Below are positions 4,721 to 28,500 of a stretch of 64,000 nt of DNA, one piece after another. This stretch comes from Lineus longissimus (Eukaryota > Nemertea > Pilidiophora > Heteronemertea > Lineidae): assembly GCF_910592395.1 (NCBI RefSeq), contig NC_088316.1, positions 19,778,001-19,842,000 on the forward strand. Direction: 5' to 3'. The notes below the pieces were generated by a model that had not been told where the DNA came from, searched no databases, and was given only the letters and a program-made list of their open reading frames with translations. The translations under genes and the position numbers were made by a program. The stretch's first letter is position 1. Each line of letters begins with the position of its first letter.

Positions 4721-6484
4721 ATTCCTGTTACACCTGTATAAACGACCAACCAATGCAGTCACAATCAGGACAATTAACTAGACGTTTGCTCCCGGGAATA
4801 GTATTCCTGTTACACCTGTATAAACGACCAACCAATGCAGTCACAATCAGGACAATTAACTAGACGTTTGCTCCCGGGAATAGTATTCCTGTTACACTGG
4901 TAAAGACGGCCTCACAATCAGGACAACTCGACATTTGCTCCAAGGGATAGCATTCCCTGTTACATAGCCGATCTACCAATGCAGTCACAGGACAACGAGA
5001 CGTTTCCTCGAGGGGATAGTATTTCCTGTTACACTGGTACAGACGACCTACCAGTTCAGTATCAATCAGGACAACGCGACATTTGCTCCAAGGGATAGCA
5101 TTCCCTGTTACACAGACGATCTGTCAATGCAGTCACAGAACAACGAGACGTTTCCTTCAGAGGATAGTATTCCCTGTTACACTGATACAGACGACCTGCC
5201 TGTTCAGTCACAGGACAACTTGACGTTTCCTCGAGGGGATAGTATTCCCTGTTACATTGGTACAGACGATCTGTCAGTGAAGACACAATCAGAGGTCTGC
5301 TAGACATTTCCTCCAGGGGATATTATTCCCTGTTACATTGGTACAGACGATCTGCCAATGAAGACACAATCAGAGGACTGCTAGACGTTTCCTCCAGGGG
5401 ATATTATTCCCTGTTACATTGGTACAGACGATCTGCCAGTGAAGACACAATCAGAGGCCTGCTGGACGTTTCCTCCAGGGGATATTATTCCCTGTTACAT
5501 TGGTACAGACGATCTTCCAGTGAAGACACAATCAGAGGCCTGCTAGACGTTTCCTCCAGGGGATATTATTCCCTGTTACATTGGTACAGACGATCTTCCA
5601 GTGAAGACACAATCAGAGGCCTGCTAGACGTTTCCTCCAGGGGATATTATTCCCTGTTACATTGGTACAGACGATCTGCCAGTGAAGACACAATCAGAGG
5701 CCTGCTAGACGTTTCCTCCAGGGGATATTATTCCCTGTTACATTGGTACAGACGATCTTCCATGCAGTGAAGACACAATCAGAGGCCTGCTAGACGTTTC
5801 CTCCAGGGGATATTATTCCCTGTTACATTGGTACAGACGATCTGTCAGTGAAGACACAATCAGAGGTCTGCTAGACATTTCCTCCAGGGGATATTATTCC
5901 CTGTTACATTGGTACAGACGATCTGCCAATGAAGACACAATCAGAGGACTGCTAGACGTTTCCTCCAGGGGATATTATTCCCTGTTACATTGGTACAGAC
6001 GATCTTCCAGTGAAGACACAATCAGAGGCCTGCTAGACGTTTCCTCCAGGGGATATTATTCCCTGTTACATTGGTACAGACGATCTTCCAGTGAAGACAC
6101 AATCAGAGGCCTGCTAGACGTTTCCTCCAGGGGATATTATTCCCTGTTACATTGGTACAGACGATCTGCCAGTGAAGACACAATCAGAGGACTGCTGGAC
6201 GTTTCCTCCAGGGGATATTATTCCCTGTTACATTGGTACAGACGATCTTCCAGTGAAGACACAATCAGAGGCCTGCTGGACGTTTCCTCCAGGGGATAGT
6301 ATTCCCTGTTACATTGGTAGAGACGATCTTCCAGTGAAGACACAATCAGAGGCCTGCTAGACGTTTCCTCCAGGGGATATTATTCCCTGTTACATTGGTA
6401 CAGACGATCTGCCAGTGAAGACACAATCAGAGGCCTGCTAGACGTTTCCTCCAGGGGATATTATTCCCTGTTACATTGGTACGG
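4721..6484. repeat. Minisatellite, 81-bp unit, about 21-22 copies
   Basis: The period is 81 bp (for example, the same motif begins at 5384 and 5465). Units share ttattccctgttacattgg and gacacaatcagagg. Copies from about 5290 onward are near-identical. Those from 4721 to 5290 are degenerate and of variable length (the first step is 82 bp, and one later unit carries a few extra bases near 5763). The homogeneous right part suggests recent amplification from that side. Because 81 is divisible by three, some units read open over several repeats, but most contain an in-frame TAG, so I do not treat it as coding. Confidence 0.95.
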
Positions 6485-7582: not shown

Positions 7583-10500
7583 CTAATCTCTCCCCTTCAC
7601 AATAGATCTCAAAGGCTGAAATCGCAAAGTGTCGTCCTTTCCTGCTGGTTTCTTTGCAACAGGCTCCATGGTGAACATGTACGACCCTGTCGGGTAAACG
7701 TAGGCCTGAAAGGAATCACTTGTCGTGAATGTTCCAAGCTTTTTCCCGCTGAATGTCTCTGTGATGTTGTATTTATACAGGGTGTTCCCTACTAGAGTCC
7801 CAACTTTGTAGGATGCGAGGTGAGGGACACCGTCTGTACCCTTGTTTAGAATCACGAAAGCAAAACTGCCCGTTGGCTGGATTGGTTTACGCCAGAGCTG
7901 AATGTTGCCAGACTGAAAATAAAACAGGAAATTAGCTGAAACAGGGCATGACCTGTTGGCAGCCACATCACACATGTGGAGGTTGATAGAAGGACCAAAG
8001 ACAACAGCATCGTCACTGAAGTGAAACAAAGTATGTGGAATTGGTTGGGCCGAGATTACATGTAGAGGATGGAAACTCACACTTCTCCTCATGACGTGGC
8101 ATGAGTTGACATGGGATGCACCACACAGGGCTCATGGATGACTTATGCTCTCTAATAAGAGCCAAGAGGTGATGATGCCTTGCTTCATTCAGTTGGAAGC
8201 TTTAATGAATCACCATCTATCCATTCATACCTACCACTTGTATTCTTGTCCCCTGTACCCCGAGCTTGTCCTGATTGACTGCAATCACCCGTTTATTTTG
8301 CAGTATTGCTACAGATTCAGCTGGTATTGCACGAAGATCGACAGACATCACCAATGGAGCAGCCATCATCGCCCACATGGCCATCTGTGACTGCTGCTGG
8401 GTCAGACTGAGGCCATAGTCTCCCACAATCAACTGCAACAAACAGATATTTGTGCTCTTAGTCTGATTTCAAAATCCTCTTGTTCGTCTAACACGTTTTC
8501 AGGACTTTGACTTAAATCAAAATGCTGAATAAGTTGTGACTGATCAATCATTTAACACTTATTTTTAGTAAAGTAGTTCTATCAAGAGGTTCATTGTAAA
8601 TGTGTATTACGTGTTTCTGTCCCTGCAAAAAAGGATTGAGCTTGGCTACCTCAGGTGCAAACCCAAAATATCCCAATAAACCTTACCATATCTGGATCAT
8701 TGAAGTGCCCAGGACCAGCATAGCTGCTAAAATTAGCTGGATTTTTGCCATAATATTCTATAATGGACTCGATGCTATCCCAGGAATCCTGGATGTCACC
8801 ATAGTTCCTCCACATGTTGCAGTATTTGGCAATGGATTTGTAATCCGGCTAAATGAGGAGGGAGGAAAGTAGAACGAGGCATGAGATACTACTCAGAACC
8901 TATCAGTCAGCTACCTGACTGCCTGCCCTGGTCACACCCTTACCTTGCAGCCTGAAAATGAGGTCAGTTAGTGGACAGACGGGAAGAACAGAAAGAGTTA
9001 AGGATAGGAGGATGTAGTTTGAACATGTTCAAAGGAAATCCGTCAGAAACACAGATGCAGATGTTTTATTTTCAAGACAGTTACTGTTATATCATGGCAG
9101 AGTATAGGCAAGGATTTGCATTATGTTACACGACTCAACGGTTACTGGGTCTCATCAGTGTCGTTCAATTTGTTTTCAAAGGACTTTCTCAGTGGCAGTC
9201 TGGTGACTAGCACACTGGGAGTGATTTACATTACAACGTTACAATATCTCATGCCTATAATCTACCACAAATAGAAAACAAAACACATTCCGATACAGAA
9301 AGGGGTAGTTAGTAGGGGTAGTGTGAGTAGACACAATGTTAGAGAAAACCTATGCTAAGTATTCATTCTACTCTTACCACATCGGGATTGTTCCACGCCC
9401 CAGGTCCCGCAACCTGAGTGAAATTATCTGCATCATCCCCATAGTAATCAACTATGGAGACTACTGTGTCCCACTTATCATCAATATCAACGTAATTACG
9501 GAAAATATTACATGTTTTGGCAACATGGGGGTAGTCGGGCTGTGGAGAAATGAGCAGGAATTGAAATAAAGGATATAAAGAAAAGGGCATCGCCTGGCTA
9601 GAGGACTTGTGTCCATAGTTTACTTTATACTTGTACTACTGGTATCTCAACATCAATGAGTGGTACGGGTTAAGTGGTTTATTCAATGGTTTTGTTCCAA
9701 TTATGAGACACTTTCTGAACAGCTGACATCTCATCACATGAGATAACAGGACCAGCCAGGTGATCTGAGTCACATGAGCGATATGGCCCAAAAACTACAA
9801 ACTTTGGAAAAATTGAGTCAACATGCATATGTATTTGATCAATATTTGTACTCATTTCGGCCGTAACAATCAAGAAGTGAACCAATTTTGTGTACTGATT
9901 GTGGGTTATATTTACATTCTGCCTGATGAGATCACACTCATAGAGACCTTTATCGTAAAGGTCACTTCACAATAGCAGGAGTAAATTGGAAAAAAACCTG
10001 AACCAATGCTTCTACCGAACATGCAAGCAACACCTTGATCTGTTAAAAGAAAGATAAAGAATATGTGACCAAATTATGAGGTTAAGGACAGGTTACACCA
10101 TGACAGGTATCTCAGAGAAAAGTTTGAGAATATGAGGGTAGAAAGGAGAGGTTGGAACTACAAGGGAGGGGACCAATACTCACCTTATCAAGGTAGATCA
10201 GACTAGTCCCTCTGTGATGTTCTGACAGAATGGGTGTGACTGACAGGACAGGCAACCAGGGAGAATCAAACAATATACTTGGACAAGAACAATACATCAA
10301 GTACTTGATCATTGACAGCACATGTCTTCGAAAGAATGAACTTGCATTGTTTTGACAAGAAATGAAAAAGCATATTTGTCATCATATTAGAAGAACATTG
10401 CTTGAAATTACACGAAGCAATTTCTCCCATTTCAAATGTTCAGTGCAGTTTATGAAAGCACAAAGCTACAACATTGAACAGTCAAACTTAACTTTCACTC

Positions 10501-12364
10501 AGTTTCTCATGTTATTACATGTATTTCCTCATAGTGATTCTCATGAATCTGCACTAACCGTTGACTGGTATGCTGGCCAGCTGCAGGAGAAGACGATCGG
10601 CCTGCCAGTCATGTTGAGGAACTTGGTCATGGTTGGGTAACCTAGTCGAGGAAGGAAACTACACATTTATCACAACTGAGGCGAGTGAGGAGGGTTCTGG
10701 TTTTGGGAACATTCCATCGAGTTTCTTTGCCTTTTCAACAAGGGGTGACTTTACCAATCTTCAAATGTAAACAATTCAACTTTCTTTCAACAAATAATGC
10801 AAACGACACTAATCAGAAAAGGGTTTGAGCACATCATGCAACACATAGTAAGCCTCTATGTTGGTTCTCTCAGTCACTAAATTTACCTGTCAAAATTGAA
10901 GGGTGTGAATGCAATGTTTACAGCACGCACAAATGAAATATTAGTCAAAATGCTTTGGCAGACTGATGGTAGGGAAAAGTCTCGGAGCAGAAGCAAGAAA
11001 GAGAATAGGATAGCATCTACAAAGCATCTACAGCACAGACATATGGAGGAGAAGGGCTCATTTCTTTACTGGAAAGAATTCAAAAAGTTGGATATCCTTA
11101 GGTGTTGCCTGCATGTTCCATCAAAGTGTAGCACAACAAAATTACCAGATGACTGACTATAAAACCTGTAGCAATGGTGTAAACTGAACTAACCTTCATG
11201 CCGGAGCCCTGCTGATACAGTGGCCATTCGCAAGAATAGACCATAGGCCTCCCAGTCTGATTGAGAAAGAACTGCATGACAGCATAGCCTACAGGTGAAG
11301 AGCAAAGCACCATAAGCAAAAGAAGGAAAGGGATGAGTGAGAACATTTGACTCAAAGTCAAAATTGGTTAAAGCTGGGGCTTGCATGACAAGAACTAAAC
11401 TGTTTAAATGCTGACTAAGGCCCACTTTGTATGCAAAAGATACTTTAGTTTTTAAAACAAAAACAAGTGAAAACAAGACTTGAAAATATGAGGCAAAAAT
11501 ATGAAAATATGTTGCATGATGTGCTACCTCCCAACTGAAGACTTTTTAAACACAGGCTTTTAACACAGAAGGTCAGTGGTGGAAGAGCTATTTTACCTGG
11601 AGATCCTTCAAATATCAGAAATCTGTGAGGAAAACATTATTATTAGCTTTACCTTCATCCATCTGCTTTGGGTCGGAGTAACATCCATCGAATTTGAGCA
11701 AATCAACACCCCATTCAGCAAATGTGTTGGCATCCAACTGCATGTAGAACTCGCTGCCTGGGTAGCCTCCACATGTCTTGGTCCCAAAGTCTTCATAGAT
11801 TCCAAACTTCATGCCTAAGCTATGAACCTGAAGTTCAAGAAGATGCTTTCAATAATGTGTATCTGTAGGTTTGGTTACATGCAGCATGAAGTCCAGAAAA
11901 TTCTGGAGGCCATGGACAAAAGCACCTACAAGGAACAGTTTGTCATTGATCACATTTTTCTTCTGCATTATAATGAACCTGTACAAAATGAACCTTACGT
12001 CATCACCAACTATTCAACTTACATAATCAGCCAAATGCTTCATGCCATTTGGAAATCTCTCTGGGTCGGGTACCAGTTTAGCCGTCTTTGGATCTCTCTC
12101 CAATGCTGGCCAACAATCATCAATGGTAATGTATTCATAGCCCGCAGCCAAGTAGCCATTGTTCTTCATGTGCAGAGCCATCTCCTTGATGAGGCGTTCA
12201 CTGATGCAGTTGTTAGGGTCGTTCTTACAATCTGTGTTGCACCTGAACCTCTCCCAGGTTAGCCATCCCATGGGCGGAGTCAGTGCTAACCCATTGTCCA
12301 ATGAGAATGAGACCTGCACATGAAGGCAGATGAGAGCAGCAATGATCGACAGGACCCGAGACAT
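7583..12364 (-). CDS. Lysosomal GH27 alpha-galactosidase / alpha-N-acetylgalactosaminidase with duplicated alternative exons
   Basis: Glycoside hydrolase family 27, which removes terminal alpha-Gal or alpha-GalNAc from glycans in the lysosome. Constant exons: 1 (12364-12023), 2 (11827-11653), 5 (8432-8235), 6 (7912-7583, TGA). Exons 3 and 4 each exist in two versions: 3a 11288-11194 and 3b 10641-10559; 4a 9539-9378 and 4b 8848-8687. Isoform 3a+4a sums to 1302 nt (433 aa) and 3b+4b to 1290 nt (429 aa), both typical of the family. Exon 1 encodes a signal peptide ([17 protein letters not shown]), then LTPPMGW and TIDDCW. Exon 2 has the nucleophile motif LLKFDGC. Both exon 4 versions keep the acid/base Asp in RNYxDI. 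Exon 5 carries [12 protein letters not shown]. The ATG at 12364 is chosen because the signal peptide follows it. Vertebrate GLA and NAGA are the two descendants of this family, and this gene has the recognition signatures of both. Confidence 0.95.
8687..8848 (-). other. GH27 alternative exon 4b
   Basis: This exon has exactly the same length (162 nt) and phase (0-0) as exon 4a, with acceptor cctcatttag and donor GTAAGG. It begins [20 protein letters not shown] and ends [10 protein letters not shown]. The catalytic Asp is kept. The IQD and GPGH variants resemble human NAGA more than GLA. Confidence 0.9.
9378..9539 (-). other. GH27 alternative exon 4a
   Basis: This 162-nt exon is phase 0 at both ends (acceptor ctccacag, donor GTAAGA). 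It begins [20 protein letters not shown] and ends [10 protein letters not shown]. The Arg and acid/base Asp (R227 and D231 in human GLA) are kept. The IDD after them resembles GLA. The otherwise strongly conserved NDPDM is changed to NNPDV. Confidence 0.88.
10559..10641 (-). other. GH27 alternative exon 3b, alpha-N-acetylgalactosaminidase signature
   Basis: This 83-nt exon has the same entry phase (1), exit phase (0) and donor hexamer (GTTAGT) as exon 3a, with acceptor ...cgactag. It encodes [19 protein letters not shown], then C-S-W-P-A-Y, then QST. Ser and Ala correspond to human NAGA S188 and A191, which make room for the N-acetyl group. It is four codons shorter than 3a, in the loop after the motif. 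Confidence 0.9.
11194..11288 (-). other. GH27 alternative exon 3a, alpha-galactosidase signature
   Basis: This 95-nt exon follows exon 2 in phase 1 and ends in phase 0, with acceptor ...cctgtag and donor GTTAGT. It encodes [19 protein letters not shown], then C-E-W-P-L-Y, then QQGSGMK. Glu and Leu of this motif correspond to human GLA E203 and L206, the residues that accept galactose and exclude the N-acetyl group. Confidence 0.9.
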
Positions 12365-12734
12365 CCTAAAAGTATAACAAATGAGAAGTCCATCTATTTG
12401 ATTTAGTTACAAGACATGTATATGTTCTATCAGTATCATAGTAGAAGAGCGATGAACCGGCTCCATCCGGTAACTAGAAAAGCAAGTTACTGAAGAACAT
12501 ACTAGCCTTATCTATTTTCGGACAATTATTTTTTACCAAAATGTTTTTCAATGCCCTCCCTTATTAAAATATCAGACTTCGAATAAAATGCAAGGTTATA
12601 TATAACACCGACTTTATACTCTTACCTTAATATATCCGTATTATTAGTGCTCTTGGTAGGAATCGGGAGAAAATCGATGAAAAGTGAAGAAACTTTAAAA
12701 AATTTCTGCTAATTCTGCCCCGGCCATTTGCCCT

Positions 12735-13358: not shown

Positions 13359-15127
13359 ATGTCTGTGTCGGACTCAAAAATGAGTGCTTCCAATGTTGCT
13401 CGGACTGCTTTACGTTGGGCGTTTAATTTCGGGTCATGGAGGCCGACCAAAGCAGAGTGGATGCTGGCTGCACAGTGTGTTCAGATGGAGGAGAAGAATA
13501 GGATAGGGAAATTTGTCTTCAAAAGAGATGCGAAATCTGCTATGGTGAGTTGAGCACCGGCCACCGTGGAACCTTCCTTAGTGGTTGCCTCCCTTAGGAA
13601 GACACCCTCTCTGTTAAGGAGAGTTGGCCCCAAGGCAGTTGTTCCTGTATAAACTTTGATGTCTTTATTTTCATTAATAATTGGGACACCTCCCTGTTGA
13701 GGACAGCATTTTCAGTCGCAAGGGTGTTTGTTATTGCAGGCTGGCAGATTGCTTCTCAGGAAGGCCATCTCGGACACACTGCAAATACCCTACGGAGATG
13801 TGAGGCTGGATAGGACAGAGAAAGGCAAACCTTTCCTTGTGAACACTGTGGCAACACATTTCTCATTCAATGTGTCTCACCAAGGGAAACTTGCAGTCTT
13901 GGCAACTGAATTCGATAAGGATGTGGGAATTGATGTCATGGAAATCACACAGCCCAGTAAGTAAGATTTACCCAGAACTTTTTAGGCAGCAGATATCTTA
14001 ATGTCGAGCCACTCCACCAGTGGGGCTCCTCAGTTAGGTTATTGCAATGTTTGTTCGTTATTTTCAGGGGGCAGTAAGTCTGTGGCTGATTTCTTTCACA
14101 CTATGAGAAGGCAATTCACAGATGATGAATGGGAAGCCATAAAGGAACCTATGACAGACTCGGGGAGATTGGCAAGGTTTTATAGATTCTGGGTGAGTAA
14201 GATTCTGCTACCTGCATTTGCAGAAATATTTTCATGCAGAGATGGATAAGGGTTTATCATTCATCAGGCTTACACTGTGCCAGCTCTTTAACATGTTGAA
14301 AGCTGCATGCAATGAAAAGCCCCTTCTGAACTCAGATGATGATTACTCCAAAGACAACCTTCGATTGCCATGATGAAGACTTCTCCAATCTGAAGATGTG
14401 AAAGCTTGGTTTTGTTGACTTACTGGTATGGGAATAGGTTTAAATCTCAACCTTATTAAGGCTTCGTTATTTGCAGTGTCTCAAAGAGAGCTATGTGAAA
14501 GCTGTTGGCATAGGTATAGGATACAGCCTGCAGAGACTGAGCTTCAAGATCAGCACACCTCAACTACGACAAGGAAACCTGACAAAGGACACAGTGTTGT
14601 TTATTGATGGAATCAAGGAGGTGATGTGGGAGTTCCATGAGACGATGGTGGATGAGCACCATTGTACTGCTGTGGCTGTCAGGAAAACCACTCATCAGGT
14701 AGTATTTTCCAGACATTCTGTATACTTCGATCCCAAAATAATTTTGCTGGTGTAAAACTGTGTTCAGGGTAATCCTTTAAGACTGCTATTTCCTTTAATG
14801 CGTTTTTAATGCTCTTTCTGGGTGAACACTACCTGCTATTGATATTGGGTCATCGCTGTCAGTGAATGATGTGTACTATAAGTAACTTGCGTGATGTCAG
14901 ACAAACAAACCTTGACTTATTAGCTCATTTTCACTTTCAAATCTCATGTTGTTATTATTTTGCAGGGGCAGAATGAAGAATGTGACTGTGATGGAATGAT
15001 GACCTCGGGACTGTTCGAGATTTTATCGTTTAGTCAGCTGGTTGTGTCAGCTCAACCATGTTTAGAGACCGACTTGGATTACTGGGAAGCGTTTGATCAG
15101 AAAGACGAATCGCCAGGAGGATCATGA
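13359..15127 (+). CDS. AASDHPPT: L-aminoadipate-semialdehyde dehydrogenase-phosphopantetheinyl transferase
   Basis: A cytosolic Sfp-type 4'-phosphopantetheinyl transferase that moves phosphopantetheine from CoA to a serine of carrier proteins such as fatty acid synthase ACP. Five exons in phase: 13359-13544, 13740-13956, 14068-14192, 14477-14698 and 14966-15127, giving 303 aa (human protein about 309). The N-terminus has RWAFNFGSWRPTKAEW. The core has FSFNVSHQGKLAVLA and the metal-binding GIDVMEI. Across the exon 3/4 junction lies FW-CLKESYVKAVG, the family's W-x-x-K-E-x-x-x-K motif. The start follows an acceptor-like ctgacttcag with four bases before the ATG, so there is a 5' UTR intron. AATAAA follows at 15602-15607. 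The gene is divergent to the GH27 gene, with about 1 kb between the start codons. Confidence 0.95.
13560..13735. mobile_element. Degenerate MITE in AASDHPPT intron 1
   Basis: Intron 1 contains gtggaaccttccttagtgg, aaggagagttgg and ccctgttgaggacagcattttc. These resemble the ends and body of the element at 30468-30648 (guggaacctc-type end, 'ggacac', 'agtgctgtcc'). It is diverged and its ends are not sharp. Confidence 0.4.
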
Positions 15128-23801: not shown

Positions 23802-25518
23802 GGGTCTGGTTCTGTCATATCACCATTTAGTGCTTCATTTTGGTTTATGTGCCTTCAGATGAATTAGGAGTACGTCAATTAAAGGTTTTTTGGAATCAAT
23901 GTGGGTCGTTTGAAATTGGCAAATAGGCCTCATCTAGCCCTTCAGTCCAAATCTGTATATCCCAAGCATCAGAACCAATTGCAAGCAACAAGGTTTAAGA
24001 TGCCTCATGAAGACAGACAACACAAAACCCTATGAACTTGATAGAGGACTGAAAAGTATCCAACAACCAAACATACTTGATACTGATGTTCATAACTCTG
24101 ATCAATGAATGTTTAAAAGAGAACTTTCTTGCTCTGATCTTGATGTCTGATCAAGATGGAATGTGCTGTAGGCCTAACAAAAATCTAGGCCTACTACTAA
24201 CTCATGAGTCATAGGACATGTTTCGTTGATACAAAACTGTTGACATTCTCGTTATGAAAGGTCAAGGAGTCATCATAAGATGAACATGCATGCTTGCTGG
24301 ATTGTGATCCGGACTCCTGAGGGGACACTTAACGTCCTCAAATACAATCTTTGAGTAGGGACAATTGGCTAAATAGCGTCTAATCATTTTATCATTTCAT
24401 GTGGACCTACACGTACATGCTGTGCTTCTGACAGGCCTACTCATGCCATCCTGAGGAAATCATAGGTTAATGTTCGCTTCTCCAACCCTGCACATTAACC
24501 CCCGATTTCCTGAGGATGCCATTGCGGTCACTGGGTGTACAGTATCGCATGATACGCATGATAGAGTTAACAATTAAACAAGCCCCCTCACCACCCACTA
24601 TAAACATCACCAATATAGACTATAAACGACGGCAAAGACGGGCTGATAGATGTGGCTACCAATGGCCTTTCCGAAGACAGGACATAGTGAGAGAATATTC
24701 ACCTACCTTGCCCATCTGACCGACTTACCCGGAGAAATGCAGATATTACTATAACCTATTGCTATTTGCACATTAGTCACTGTACATATGTACACGATGT
24801 GAACCAACTATCGACCCCAATATCAATGCGTCGAGTAAACACACTAACAGTGAGTCCAAACCTGTATCGACCTCTACTGCTCGTCAGTGTTGTGCAGACG
24901 ATTATTGTTCGGCGGTTAATTCAACAATACATCAAACTATTTTCTGACGCCAATAGTCAGCACGCATCATCTTTTGGTGCATTTATCAATATTCCCGATC
25001 GCTGCGTGTTAATTTAGCGTATGTGTGGACTCAGTTGGTCATCTGCCGGGTCATTTGCAAATACTACAAGAAGTAGGCCTAATTGTAGGATTGTCTGTCC
25101 CCTTAGCGAATAACACGCAAGTTTCATCCCTATTCACCTGACGTAGAACAGGACAGGATCCCAGTCTAGAGACATTATTGGTCACTTGGATACAGTCGAT
25201 CCATCCTGCCTGTAGCCCAAGCCACTATCTAAACGTGTTATCCTTTACAAGCAGGGACTATCGATATGTTGCATATAAAAAGCAGGATCTCGAATTAATT
25301 TTCAAATACCGCTTAGTGAACATAGTAAGGGATTAAAATCAGACGTTTTAGAAAAAAATCTATATAAGTACTCGTGTATCTAAAACCAAAATTGAACATT
25401 AAACCCCCAGGCTGGGTGAACCAGGCTAACACTTTCGTTGGCTTCGACGAATCGCGAGACCAACACGTTACGTTTCCTTTTTCGGATTCTGAGTAAGAAA
25501 TTATCCTGTGACAACGAA
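23802..25518. other. Intergenic region between INPP4 and the PAN-domain gene
   Basis: These are divergent genes, so both promoters should lie here. I see no coding exon, no clear TATA box next to either start, and no repeat. Non-coding first exons of INPP4 may be present but cannot be delimited. Confidence 0.35.
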
Positions 25519-28500
25519 ATGAAATCAGCATTCTTTTCAAATAAGGAGTTATCTTTTCTCTTCCTGTTACTCTCGCGGTTTTCTCATGGGCATACTGATC
25601 TCCGGACATCGCATTACACTGTCGTCGAGTTGGGTGGCAAGCGCGTGGTGATCACCGGACCTTACCTACTAGCCTGGTCGATGAGGTCCCCCCTCGACTG
25701 TGCCCGGGAGTGTGCCTGGAGGTCGGAGTGTTTGACCTACAACTTTGACAAGGTCACGGAAATGTGCCAGCTCAGTTCCTACAAGTCGGATTGTCAAAGT
25801 GATCTTGATAAGAATGTGAAAGGAGTAAAGCTTAAAATCGCGAATAAGGTAAGTCTTGTTGTGTACGTCACAGTGAAAGGAGGCGCGTGTACAAAAGATG
25901 AACTGAAATGACACCGGTAGATATATGTAATGGAAGAAATTGATGTGCTCCGATTTCACAAGAGGCACACAACAGTGAAATGAACAACCAGTCCGTTTTG
26001 ACCTGCCTAGCTCAGAGCGACATGCTCGCGCCTGGTTTTGCTGTGAAGGGGTCACTTCTCGGGCTACAGTTTTTGTGTGTCCTGTTGCTTTTATGGCCAG
26101 GTAAAAGCTTTTGGATTAGGCCTAGGCTGTGACCGTGTGTGTTTCCATGGGTGTAATATTATTTTCATCATCATCATCATAATCATCATAATCATTGTCA
26201 TCAACAACAGCGGCGTCCAGTCGCTTCGGATGTCTATGCCCTTGGAGTGCGTCTCCTGATTCGTGCCTATTTTGGTCAACTTCTTCTGGATTTCAGAGCA
26301 AATGAAGGCGTTGAATAATCAAACTTACCTGGAGAGAGAAAATTCAAATGGCAGCCATTTTGCGGCAATATTGTTTCATTATTTATATTGTTGTTTTCAG
26401 CCATATTTGAGGCACTATCACGACTACAGTACTTTCAAAGGTAGGTTATAATCTCCTCAATCTCATTGGAAAACGGCTTAGTGTTCTAAAAATGAAGTTA
26501 ATGTGATAAGATCGATTGTTTAAATAATAAAATGATTGTCTGTCTTATAGCCACATTGTGGCAAATGCAATATCATCACCTGCGTCTTCATATCAGAAGG
26601 GGTGAAATCAATTATTTTGTTAGACTTAAAGTGTAATCACAGGCCAGAGGTTTCCATAGCAGCTTAATCCGTCATCAAATCAATGGAAATACACTTCCTT
26701 TCCCGGTAGTCGTCATAACGTTTCTTGTTTAGCCGACGACGCCCCGCCAAACTGACAGCAAACCTTCTCTTTCAGATCCAACATCGAACGTTACCAGCAA
26801 GTTCCAGCAGTTATCCCGTTTCAGCTTGAACAAGTTCAAGTATGGAGGTGCCATGGGGCTATATAAGGGCCAATTCTACATGGTCAACTCAAAGGCGAGG
26901 GAAATTATGTTTTTCAAGAAATACAAAAGCACTTTTAGATATTCGCGTCGGGTCAAGATTACCAAGGAGCTGGGCATCAGGTTTCTTGCCTTACCGAGAT
27001 ATCAGGATTACTTAATTGCTGACATGACGAAGGTTTCCATGTATTTTTTGATAATAGAGACGGGTAGTTGTGGCTATGCTCCAATTTTACCGGAAAAGAA
27101 AAGAAAGCGTTTCAGGGGCAGTTCATCGTACAGGAACTTTATCCTGTGCCTGATGAACTATGGAAGGAAGAGAAGGTCAGGATTAAAGGCATATTCTGTT
27201 TATCGGTTCGATATCTATGAGATAAAGAAACAGGTGAAGTATAACTCGTTGCCATAAAGCGTGGTTAGGGGCCGAAGTTGACTAAATATTCCACAGAAGT
27301 TTTGTTTATGCGCTGTGAAATTTTACACACGGTACTTGTAATAGGCCTAGCTCAGCCCAAAAGCCAACAGTTGTGATGGAAGTGTTGCATATGACGAGAG
27401 AATAGCAATAACCCCGAGAAATCGGTCTTGCGAGGTCAAAGTCACGACCAAAAGGCGAGGCCAGGATAGGACCACTTGGAAAGTAAGCACTCTTAACCTC
27501 CAAACCGCGCCGACATTGTTAGCGCATGTGGATCTGCTGCCTGGCAAACTCGCCTGAAAGATAATTCTAATGTCTAATATCTAATGGACTTGGTATTTTC
27601 ATGATTGTCATTATCCACTGGCATTCCCAGGAACTACTTGATGCAAAAACTTGAAATATATAGTCTTAGCTTGCAAAGAGCACCGCCTGTCAACCTCAGC
27701 TTTTCCAACGCACTCTCGATCGGCTTTTTGTATGTGTACACATCACACATTCGCGTCACCATTTCAGGACAACGATGTTGCGAACCGAAGTCAAATGATA
27801 CACTCGTGCTCCAGACTGCCCTATCACGTGGTTTACAAGAAATCACTTCAACACCGAGATCTTGTCATTCGGAGAAATGTGCCAAGTTGGTCTGTGAATG
27901 CACACGGGAACCTTGTCGTAATAACTGATATGGGCAAGGTGAGGTTCAATGAATGAGAATCAATAAGTTTACAGACCAGTCGCAATTGATTAACAAATGA
28001 GCCGAACGGACATGATGCAGGTATCGAATATGTACAGTTAGGACAGCAAGTTCAGTGTGACTTGGTCACTTAATGTAATCATTGCACGCATTGCTGGTGA
28101 TGAGGCGGTATAAAACCCTGAGATTTGGGATGACACGCTGAAACCCATCCTAGATCAGATAAATATCGACAGGTGGCGTTCAATATTGAAAACCACTGGT
28201 TGTGCCTCTGCCGATATACTGTAAGCTAGTAGAGACATCTCTCGGTGATTTGTGAAACTCAGATTGGTCTTTTCTTTATGACAGATTGTCGTGATGTCGT
28301 TGCTAAATCCGAATACGGAACCTTACTCTCTGGATCCGAAGGAGAAGTACGCCTGGTACCGACTGATACCACACTCGACCCTTTGGTTCGAGAAAAGAGG
28401 CACTCTGTTCTTGTCCTTCAGTAAGATGGGCAAGCGCAAGACGCAGATGATGGAGATACAACTCCGATGTGCTGGCTATAGAACACTTGAACGGATTCAG

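Follow-up and report, generated by a model that had tools for sequence, protein, structure and literature searches.

A single GH27 glycosidase gene in the ribbon worm Lineus longissimus with paired alternative exons of alpha-galactosidase and alpha-N-acetylgalactosaminidase type

The genome of the nemertean Lineus longissimus carries a gene of glycoside hydrolase family 27 (GH27) in which exons 3 and 4 are each present as two homologous versions, arranged along the transcript in the order 3E, 3S, 4x and 4y. It lies at 7583-12364 on the minus strand of the 64,000-nucleotide stretch that we analysed (positions 19,778,001 to 19,842,000 of contig NC_088316.1, assembly GCF_910592395.1; hereafter the window, whose numbering is used throughout) and is transcribed from 12364 to 7583. 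The two versions of exon 3 differ at the two residues that set galactose against N-acetylgalactosamine specificity in the human enzymes and, judging from the sequence, this is probably a single-copy gene whose substrate class is set by the mutually exclusive use of 3E or 3S. The coding exons are as follows.

12023-12364, minus strand: coding exon 1, with signal peptide, N-terminal barrel and IDDCW, and a match to PF16499
11653-11827, minus strand: coding exon 2, constant, with LLKFDGC, phase 1 at its end
11194-11288, minus strand: alternative exon 3E, 95 nt, CEWPLY with the alpha-galactosidase-type E/L pair, part of NCBI isoform X1
10559-10641, minus strand: alternative exon 3S, 83 nt, CSWPAY with the alpha-N-acetylgalactosaminidase-type S/A pair
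9378-9539, minus strand: alternative exon 4x, 162 nt, RNYVDI retained, NNPDV replacing NDPDM
8687-8848, minus strand: alternative exon 4y, 162 nt, common type HFNDPDM, part of NCBI isoform X1
8235-8432, minus strand: coding exon 5, constant
7583-7912, minus strand: coding exon 6, constant, carrying the stop codon

All introns between these exons are GT-AG and in phase. Both versions of exon 3 begin in phase 1 and finish in phase 0, the phase shared by the two exon 4s, and each of the four combinations of 3E or 3S with 4x or 4y forms one open frame, of 433 aa with 3E and 429 aa with 3S; adjacent homologous exons with matching phases are the arrangement by which mutually exclusive exons are recognised. 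Inclusion of 3E and 3S together, or skipping of exon 3, breaks the frame (joined with 4x, stops follow after 208 and 182 residues, respectively) and exon 3 is therefore frame-locked to one copy. The exon 4 pair is not frame-locked, since the frame is kept with both copies or with none, giving 487 aa when 3E is joined to 4x and 4y and 379 aa when no exon 4 follows 3E. 3E and 3S share one donor sequence, GTTAGT, whose T at +3 contrasts with the A of the gene's remaining donors. The first-pass annotation of this DNA had read the two exon 3s as C-E-W-P-L-Y (3a) and C-S-W-P-A-Y (3b) and had described both as intact, with good splice sites and equal phases, all of which agrees with the gene model; its span of 8687-11288 extends from 4y to 3E and encloses the exon 4 pair, which it mentioned only among its proposed checks. 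A third copy of exon 3 or 4 was sought within the window and none was found (next-best matches at E of at least 0.11).

The protein joined through 3E and 4y is identical across 433 residues to 'alpha-N-acetylgalactosaminidase-like isoform X1 [Lineus longissimus]' of NCBI (P0001), a label which by NCBI custom presumably implies at least one further isoform of the gene. The four Lineus combinations are mutually 91.6-97.4% identical, and clustering at 90% identity merges such isoforms. We infer that 3S, too, is used in mature mRNA. Directly before the ATG, at 12366-12625 on the minus strand, a GTAAGA donor and a TTTTAG acceptor point to a non-coding exon at the 5' end, followed by a first intron of about 260 nt.

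Membership of GH27 is indicated by seven exon-wise matches of PF16499 (Melibiase_2, GH27) above cut-off at the locus, the best at 3.7e-34, and by matches of PDB chains of NAGA and GLA to the joined isoforms at 5e-117 to 2e-132. LLKFDGC in constant exon 2 and RNYxDI in both 4x and 4y were aligned to human GLA (1r46) and to 1ktb, which we take to be chicken NAGA; as to residue roles and numbering, we assume that LLKFDGC is the nucleophile motif and that the acid/base Asp lies in RNYxDI of exon 4. A genome-wide look for a second GH27 gene, as the first-pass annotation had proposed, covered the whole assembly (391 Mb, 30 contigs) with the PF16499 profile at E<=0.001 and with a protein query at E<=10. 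These gave seven and eight exon-wise matches, respectively, all at the locus and none weaker than 2.9e-5 and 5.4e-4, and no GH27 locus besides 7583-12364 was found in the assembly by either search; the PF02065 profile had zero matches in it at E<=1. Another GH27 gene with exons of comparable size would be expected to show in these searches. If the single locus holds, this animal would have no GH27 source of the S/A type other than 3S.

The same results make it very improbable that two alleles or two genes were collapsed into one locus during assembly, an explanation for which no favourable point was found: exons 1, 2, 5 and 6 occur once each, the genome's GH27 matches all fall at the locus, 8233-12400 contains no direct repeat longer than 23 nt, and the NCBI model of Lineus longissimus has the same constant exons.

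In the PDB alignments CEWPLY of 3E falls on CEWPLY of 1r46, giving 3E the E203/L206 signature of the alpha-galactosidase A type, and CSWPAY gives 3S the S188/A191 signature of the alpha-N-acetylgalactosaminidase type. The equivalence of the human positions was read off these alignments and agrees with the earlier mapping; the residue numbers themselves, E203/L206 in GLA and S188/A191 in NAGA, are those we take to be in use. The joined protein 3E4x scored higher with wild-type human GLA (1r46, 416.1 bits) than with 3lx9, which has SWPAY in a GLA background (411.6 bits), and 3S4y reversed the order (3lx9 417.6 bits, 1r46 413.4 bits), differences that are small and due to the two residues; 3E4x and 3S4y both scored the NAGA chain 1ktb highest.

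That a swap of these residues changes GLA/NAGA specificity, as had been claimed, is supported by a swap engineered with Fabry disease in view, in which NAGAL S188E/A191L is reported to have lost activity on 4-methylumbelliferyl (4MU)-alpha-NAGAL and about doubled that on 4MU-alpha-GAL (PMC5478728). The 3E products would be alpha-galactosidases and the 3S products alpha-N-acetylgalactosaminidases. We compared 153 proteins, the best matches (at most 120 each) of three protein searches with Lineus and gastropod queries and thus an uneven sample, of which 151 yielded 157 exon-3 units and P0024 and P0077 none. The S/A pair is present in 77 units and E/L in 45, S/L and E/A in none; 86 units have S and 62 have E at position 203. 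In P0005, P0010, P0046, P0067, P0101, P0117 and P0124 exon 3 has a third state, CQWPGY, the named proteins among these being from snails and sea slugs.

In the exon 4 pair, 4y carries the common HFNDPDM, and 4x is the more divergent member, its AWNNPDV altering the conserved loop from NDPDM to NNPDV. Among 165 exon-4 units, including two mis-cut ones, a single unit has Asn in place of the Asp before Pro and a single unit has Val at the final position of the motif; these units belong to the E-type rows P0087 and P0130.

Both exon pairs diverged long ago. 3E and 3S share 16 of 27 aligned residues and 4x and 4y share 29 of 54, with third codon positions differing at 15 of 27 and 35 of 54, respectively, and Nei-Gojobori estimates over both pairs (25 + 54 codons) gave a synonymous proportion pS of 0.79, for which dS is not computable, and a nonsynonymous proportion pN of 0.30 (dN 0.39). 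In a neutral simulation of 20000 draws, with change on one copy and no indels, scored for survival of the frames and two splice-dinucleotide pairs, these remained intact in 17, 1 and 0 draws at d = 0.5, 1.0 and 1.5. Since synonymous change is near saturation with frames and splice sites intact, selection most likely kept both members of each pair, for a function that these figures do not specify. When the exon-3 units are ranked by closeness to 3E, its sister 3S comes only 107th of 157, and the ranking for 3S places 3E equally low; the 15 units nearest 3E comprise 12 of E type and three with S/A, and those nearest 3S comprise 12 with S/A and three of E or Q type.

It is on these grounds quite improbable that one member of the exon 3 pair (or of the exon 4 pair) is a relic or too rarely used, such that the gene in practice makes 3E4y. 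The naming of 3E4y alone, the divergence of 4x and the GTTAGT donors on both exon 3s would fit such a state, but it accords poorly with near-saturated synonymous change at a dN of about 0.39, with intact frames and splice sites where none of 20000 neutral draws retained them at d = 1.5, and with the S/A character of 12 of the 15 units nearest 3S, 3E being only 107th of 157.

Exon-only trees were built from 134 rows and 26 columns for exon 3 and from 145 rows and 54 columns for exon 4. Holding 3E and 3S together was not rejected (approximately unbiased (AU) test, p 0.39), and the exon-4 tree with 4x and 4y held together beats the free tree (p 0.80). As lineage-specific duplication is not rejected by trees of such short stretches, the age of the pairs relative to the mollusc-nemertean split is not fixed; orthology of the Lineus and gastropod exon pairs was considered and dropped on the same p values. 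In a gene tree without exons 3 and 4 (140 rows, with 17 left out, namely fused, double and overlong models and four joined isoforms), Lineus stands beside P0013 (93), among mainly E-type rows and in no starred set, and E and S states are spread over several groups.

Exchange of the same exon was found in other animals. The 153 proteins were screened for pairs with less than 85% identity in exon 3 or 4 but close agreement on either side, set at 90% or more across over 80 residues before exons 3-4 and 88% or more across over 60 residues after them, and five pairs passed, the gastropod isoforms among them being database protein models.

Biomphalaria P0005/P0046 and P0030/P0046: exon 3 53% and exon 4 65% identical, E/L versus Q/G
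Patella vulgata P0045/P0062 (X2/X3): exon 3 66% identical, E/L versus E/V
Haliotis rufescens P0098/P0111 (X1/X2): exon 3 53% identical and the rest 100%, E/G versus S/A
P0064/P0119: a pair across two Haliotis species

These isoforms resemble those predicted for Lineus in having near-identical constant parts and a differing exon 3 (in Biomphalaria also exon 4), and they differ in that each snail also has its own S/A-type row in the gene tree (P0036, P0143, P0068), whereas no second gene was found in Lineus. In the Biomphalaria pfeifferi model P0005 the two exon 3s, E and then Q, are followed by the two exon 4s, 4 and then 4', and its protein borders fit those of Lineus except for four extra residues. 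A protein search restricted to the exon 3-4 stretch returned two proteins and no isoforms. The comparison with other species that had been suggested at the outset thus revealed the same exon swapped in three gastropods, but the E versus S/A pair only in Haliotis rufescens. From the gastropod pairs and the scattered E and S states in the gene tree, exchange of exon 3 in GH27 is, as far as these protein models can be trusted, either recurrent or old. Separately, P0002 of Fasciola gigantica (716 aa) consists of two tandem GH27 units, with CSYPAY and CEYPVY, such that both states occur in another phylum, and P0132 of the amphipod Trinorchestia has two exon-3 units in tandem (S/V, S/F), possibly a further exon duplication there.

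The gastropod pairs bear on a different reading, in which both exons are spliced without the isoforms falling into the two enzyme types; the exchange would then adjust aglycone preference, pH or stability, or leave one product with weak activity. It would accommodate E/L exchanged for E/V in Patella and for Q/G in Biomphalaria, as well as the rarity of both the Asn and the Val in NNPDV of 4x, and the two human enzymes are reported to differ in aglycone preference as well (PMC5478728). We consider it unlikely for Lineus, where 3S has exactly the S/A pair found in 77 of the 157 units and where, as reported for the human enzyme, S/A versus E/L alone alters the substrate (PMC5478728).

If the choice of exon 3 sets the substrate class, as we favour, the introns offer a candidate mechanism for that choice in three predicted helices.

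11507-11525, minus strand: helix A, 5' arm, in intron 2-3E
10828-10846, minus strand: helix A, 3' arm, in intron 3E-3S; A loops out 3E
11100-11118, minus strand: helix B, 5' arm, in intron 3E-3S
10017-10035, minus strand: helix B, 3' arm, in intron 3S-4x; B loops out 3S
10232-10260, minus strand: helix C, 5' arm, in intron 3S-4x
8914-8939, minus strand: helix C, 3' arm, in intron 4x-4y; C loops out 4x

Helices A and B are 19 bp each and unbroken, with one G-U each on the transcribed strand, at -29.8 and -32.7 kcal/mol, and since their arms interleave one nested structure holds only one of them. In the predicted local fold of 9900-11652 the A pairs have p 0.74-0.90 and the B pairs p 0.09-0.10, and over 8860-11652 the values are 0.98 for A, 0.00 for B and near 1 for C (26 pairs), which interleaves with B and not with A. 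Two interleaved stems, each around one exon, are the layout of bidirectional competing RNA structures. None of 300 dinucleotide shuffles of 8433-11652 held even one A/B-like repeat, and the duplex energies were matched by none of 29 (A), 17 (B) and 27 (C) shuffles; in a comparison of intron pairs with six shuffles each, the margins below the lowest shuffle were 10.4, 6.5 and 9.5 kcal/mol, respectively, and at most 3.6 for other intron pairs. Within the window, one of 15 blocks, that of the GH27 gene, passes the repeat filter used for control blocks of the contig, and two more with short loops do so without the span and complexity filters. Weaker inverted repeats at 10076-10101/11174-11199 (77%) and 9130-9147/10552-10569 (83%) cover the 3E and 3S donors, which they could mask, or they may be due to chance.

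Exon 3 carries the two residues that set Gal versus GalNAc in the human enzymes, and the remainder of the fold, with the presumed nucleophile motif, lies in constant exons. In the proposed mechanism, helix A would loop out 3E, bringing exon 2 to 3S, and helix B would loop out 3S, bringing 3E to exon 4; a nested fold would hold A or B, with one exon 3 chosen, and messages with both or no exon 3 would be frame-shifted and expected to decay. Helix C would loop out 4x and, being compatible with A and incompatible with B, may couple 3S to 4y. Given the specificity switch, we lean moderately towards the helices as the means of choice on these modelled folds. The scheme in its entirety is tentative, and we hold it to fall somewhat short of probable: one Lineus gene would do the work of the GLA/NAGA pair through a three-helix RNA switch, A and C together leading to 3S-4y and an alpha-N-acetylgalactosaminidase, and B, incompatible with both, to 3E with 4x or 4y and an alpha-galactosidase, the same GH27 exon having been recruited in gastropods, possibly independently.

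Several results speak against parts of this scheme. The sole Lineus product seen by name is 3E4y, in a protein search clustered at 90% identity, yet the fold of the naked RNA favours A and hence skipping of 3E. The swaps in Patella and Biomphalaria indicate that the exchange is not always Gal versus GalNAc, and an origin of 3E/3S before the mollusc-nemertean split is unproven, lineage-specific duplication not being rejected by the exon-3 tree. A helix looping out 4y was sought among the intron pairs and none was found, and 4x with 4y is in frame. The best duplex lies below the lowest of six shuffles in eight of 15 intron pairs, six of 40 blocks taken as controls from the contig contain comparable inverted repeats (two or more in four blocks, an interleaved pair in one), and genome-wide counts for two control arms gave 139 places and two, the latter being as rare as the arms of A and B.

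The counts for control blocks and control arms would also suit an explanation that we regard as possible though rather unlikely, namely that the exons are mutually exclusive, with exclusivity arising by frame shift and decay (stops after 208 and 182 residues on double inclusion and skipping of exon 3) and the choice made by splicing proteins, the helices being chance or unrelated. Inverted repeats of this kind are found elsewhere too, but rarely so arranged. Set against chance are the 0 of 300 shuffles with one such repeat and the placement of A and B, each enclosing exactly one alternative exon. Moreover, the sequences flanking A and B agree at 4-7 of 20 positions, as by chance, while four of the six control blocks have a repeat with at least 12 of 20 on a flank, and at up to one mismatch the A pattern has two places in the genome, both of them the A arms, and the B pattern three, one of them elsewhere; the arms are not dispersed repeats.

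Elsewhere in the window, exons identified by eye at 13363-14200 on the plus strand resemble a phosphopantetheinyl transferase, presumably AASDHPPT-like, head to head with the GH27 gene with about 1 kb between them. Open frames on the plus strand match 7tm_1 at 51619-52317 (6.3e-9) and PAN_1 at 25420-25911 (2.4e-6), and at 5243-6299, likewise on the plus strand, a pair of overlapping open frames has matches to DUF3263 and to other, unrelated families, none of which passes over a single stretch; this region looks repetitive.

That GLA and NAGA came to differ in specificity after a gene duplication is well known. Like the Lineus gene, the vertebrate pair belongs to GH27 and has E/L versus S/A at the same two positions, and the human GLA exons are similar in size at the swapped segment, but the pair consists of two genes that arose by duplication where Lineus has two exons of one gene. 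A closer parallel in kind is COQ-2 of helminths, annelids and molluscs, whose exons 6a/6e are reported to be mutually exclusive and homologous and to exchange two conserved residues, there beside the substrates, the alternative exon being required for using the other substrate (PMC7434440). COQ-2 differs in being a polyprenyltransferase, experimentally tested, with equal exons of 134 nt, whereas the Lineus enzyme is a glycosidase read from sequence alone, with exon 3s of 95 and 83 nt; the authors of the COQ-2 study consider such a marked change of specificity through one splice event rare (PMC7434440). The helices have their counterpart in insect srp and Dscam, where two stems each around one alternative exon are reported to be likewise interleaved and would together form a pseudoknot (PMC6071210); those are tested insect examples, some by minigenes, and the Lineus case is a prediction from one ribbon-worm genome. 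Among the openly licensed papers listed, judged by title or abstract start, no splice-controlled specificity switch in GH27 is described, consistent with the first-pass annotation, whose author knew of none, and in the Schistosoma NAGAL paper 'alternative splicing' occurs only within titles in its references. Splice-controlled substrate choice is already known from coq-2, and the GH27 case would be new.

If the switch is real, the choice of states that distinguishes GLA from NAGA would have been reached in Lineus by exon duplication rather than gene duplication, and the gene would join the few enzymes, coq-2 being one, whose substrate depends on splicing. The bidirectional RNA model would gain a ribbon-worm case from the interleaved helices, and lysosomal glycan turnover in this animal would be placed under splicing control.

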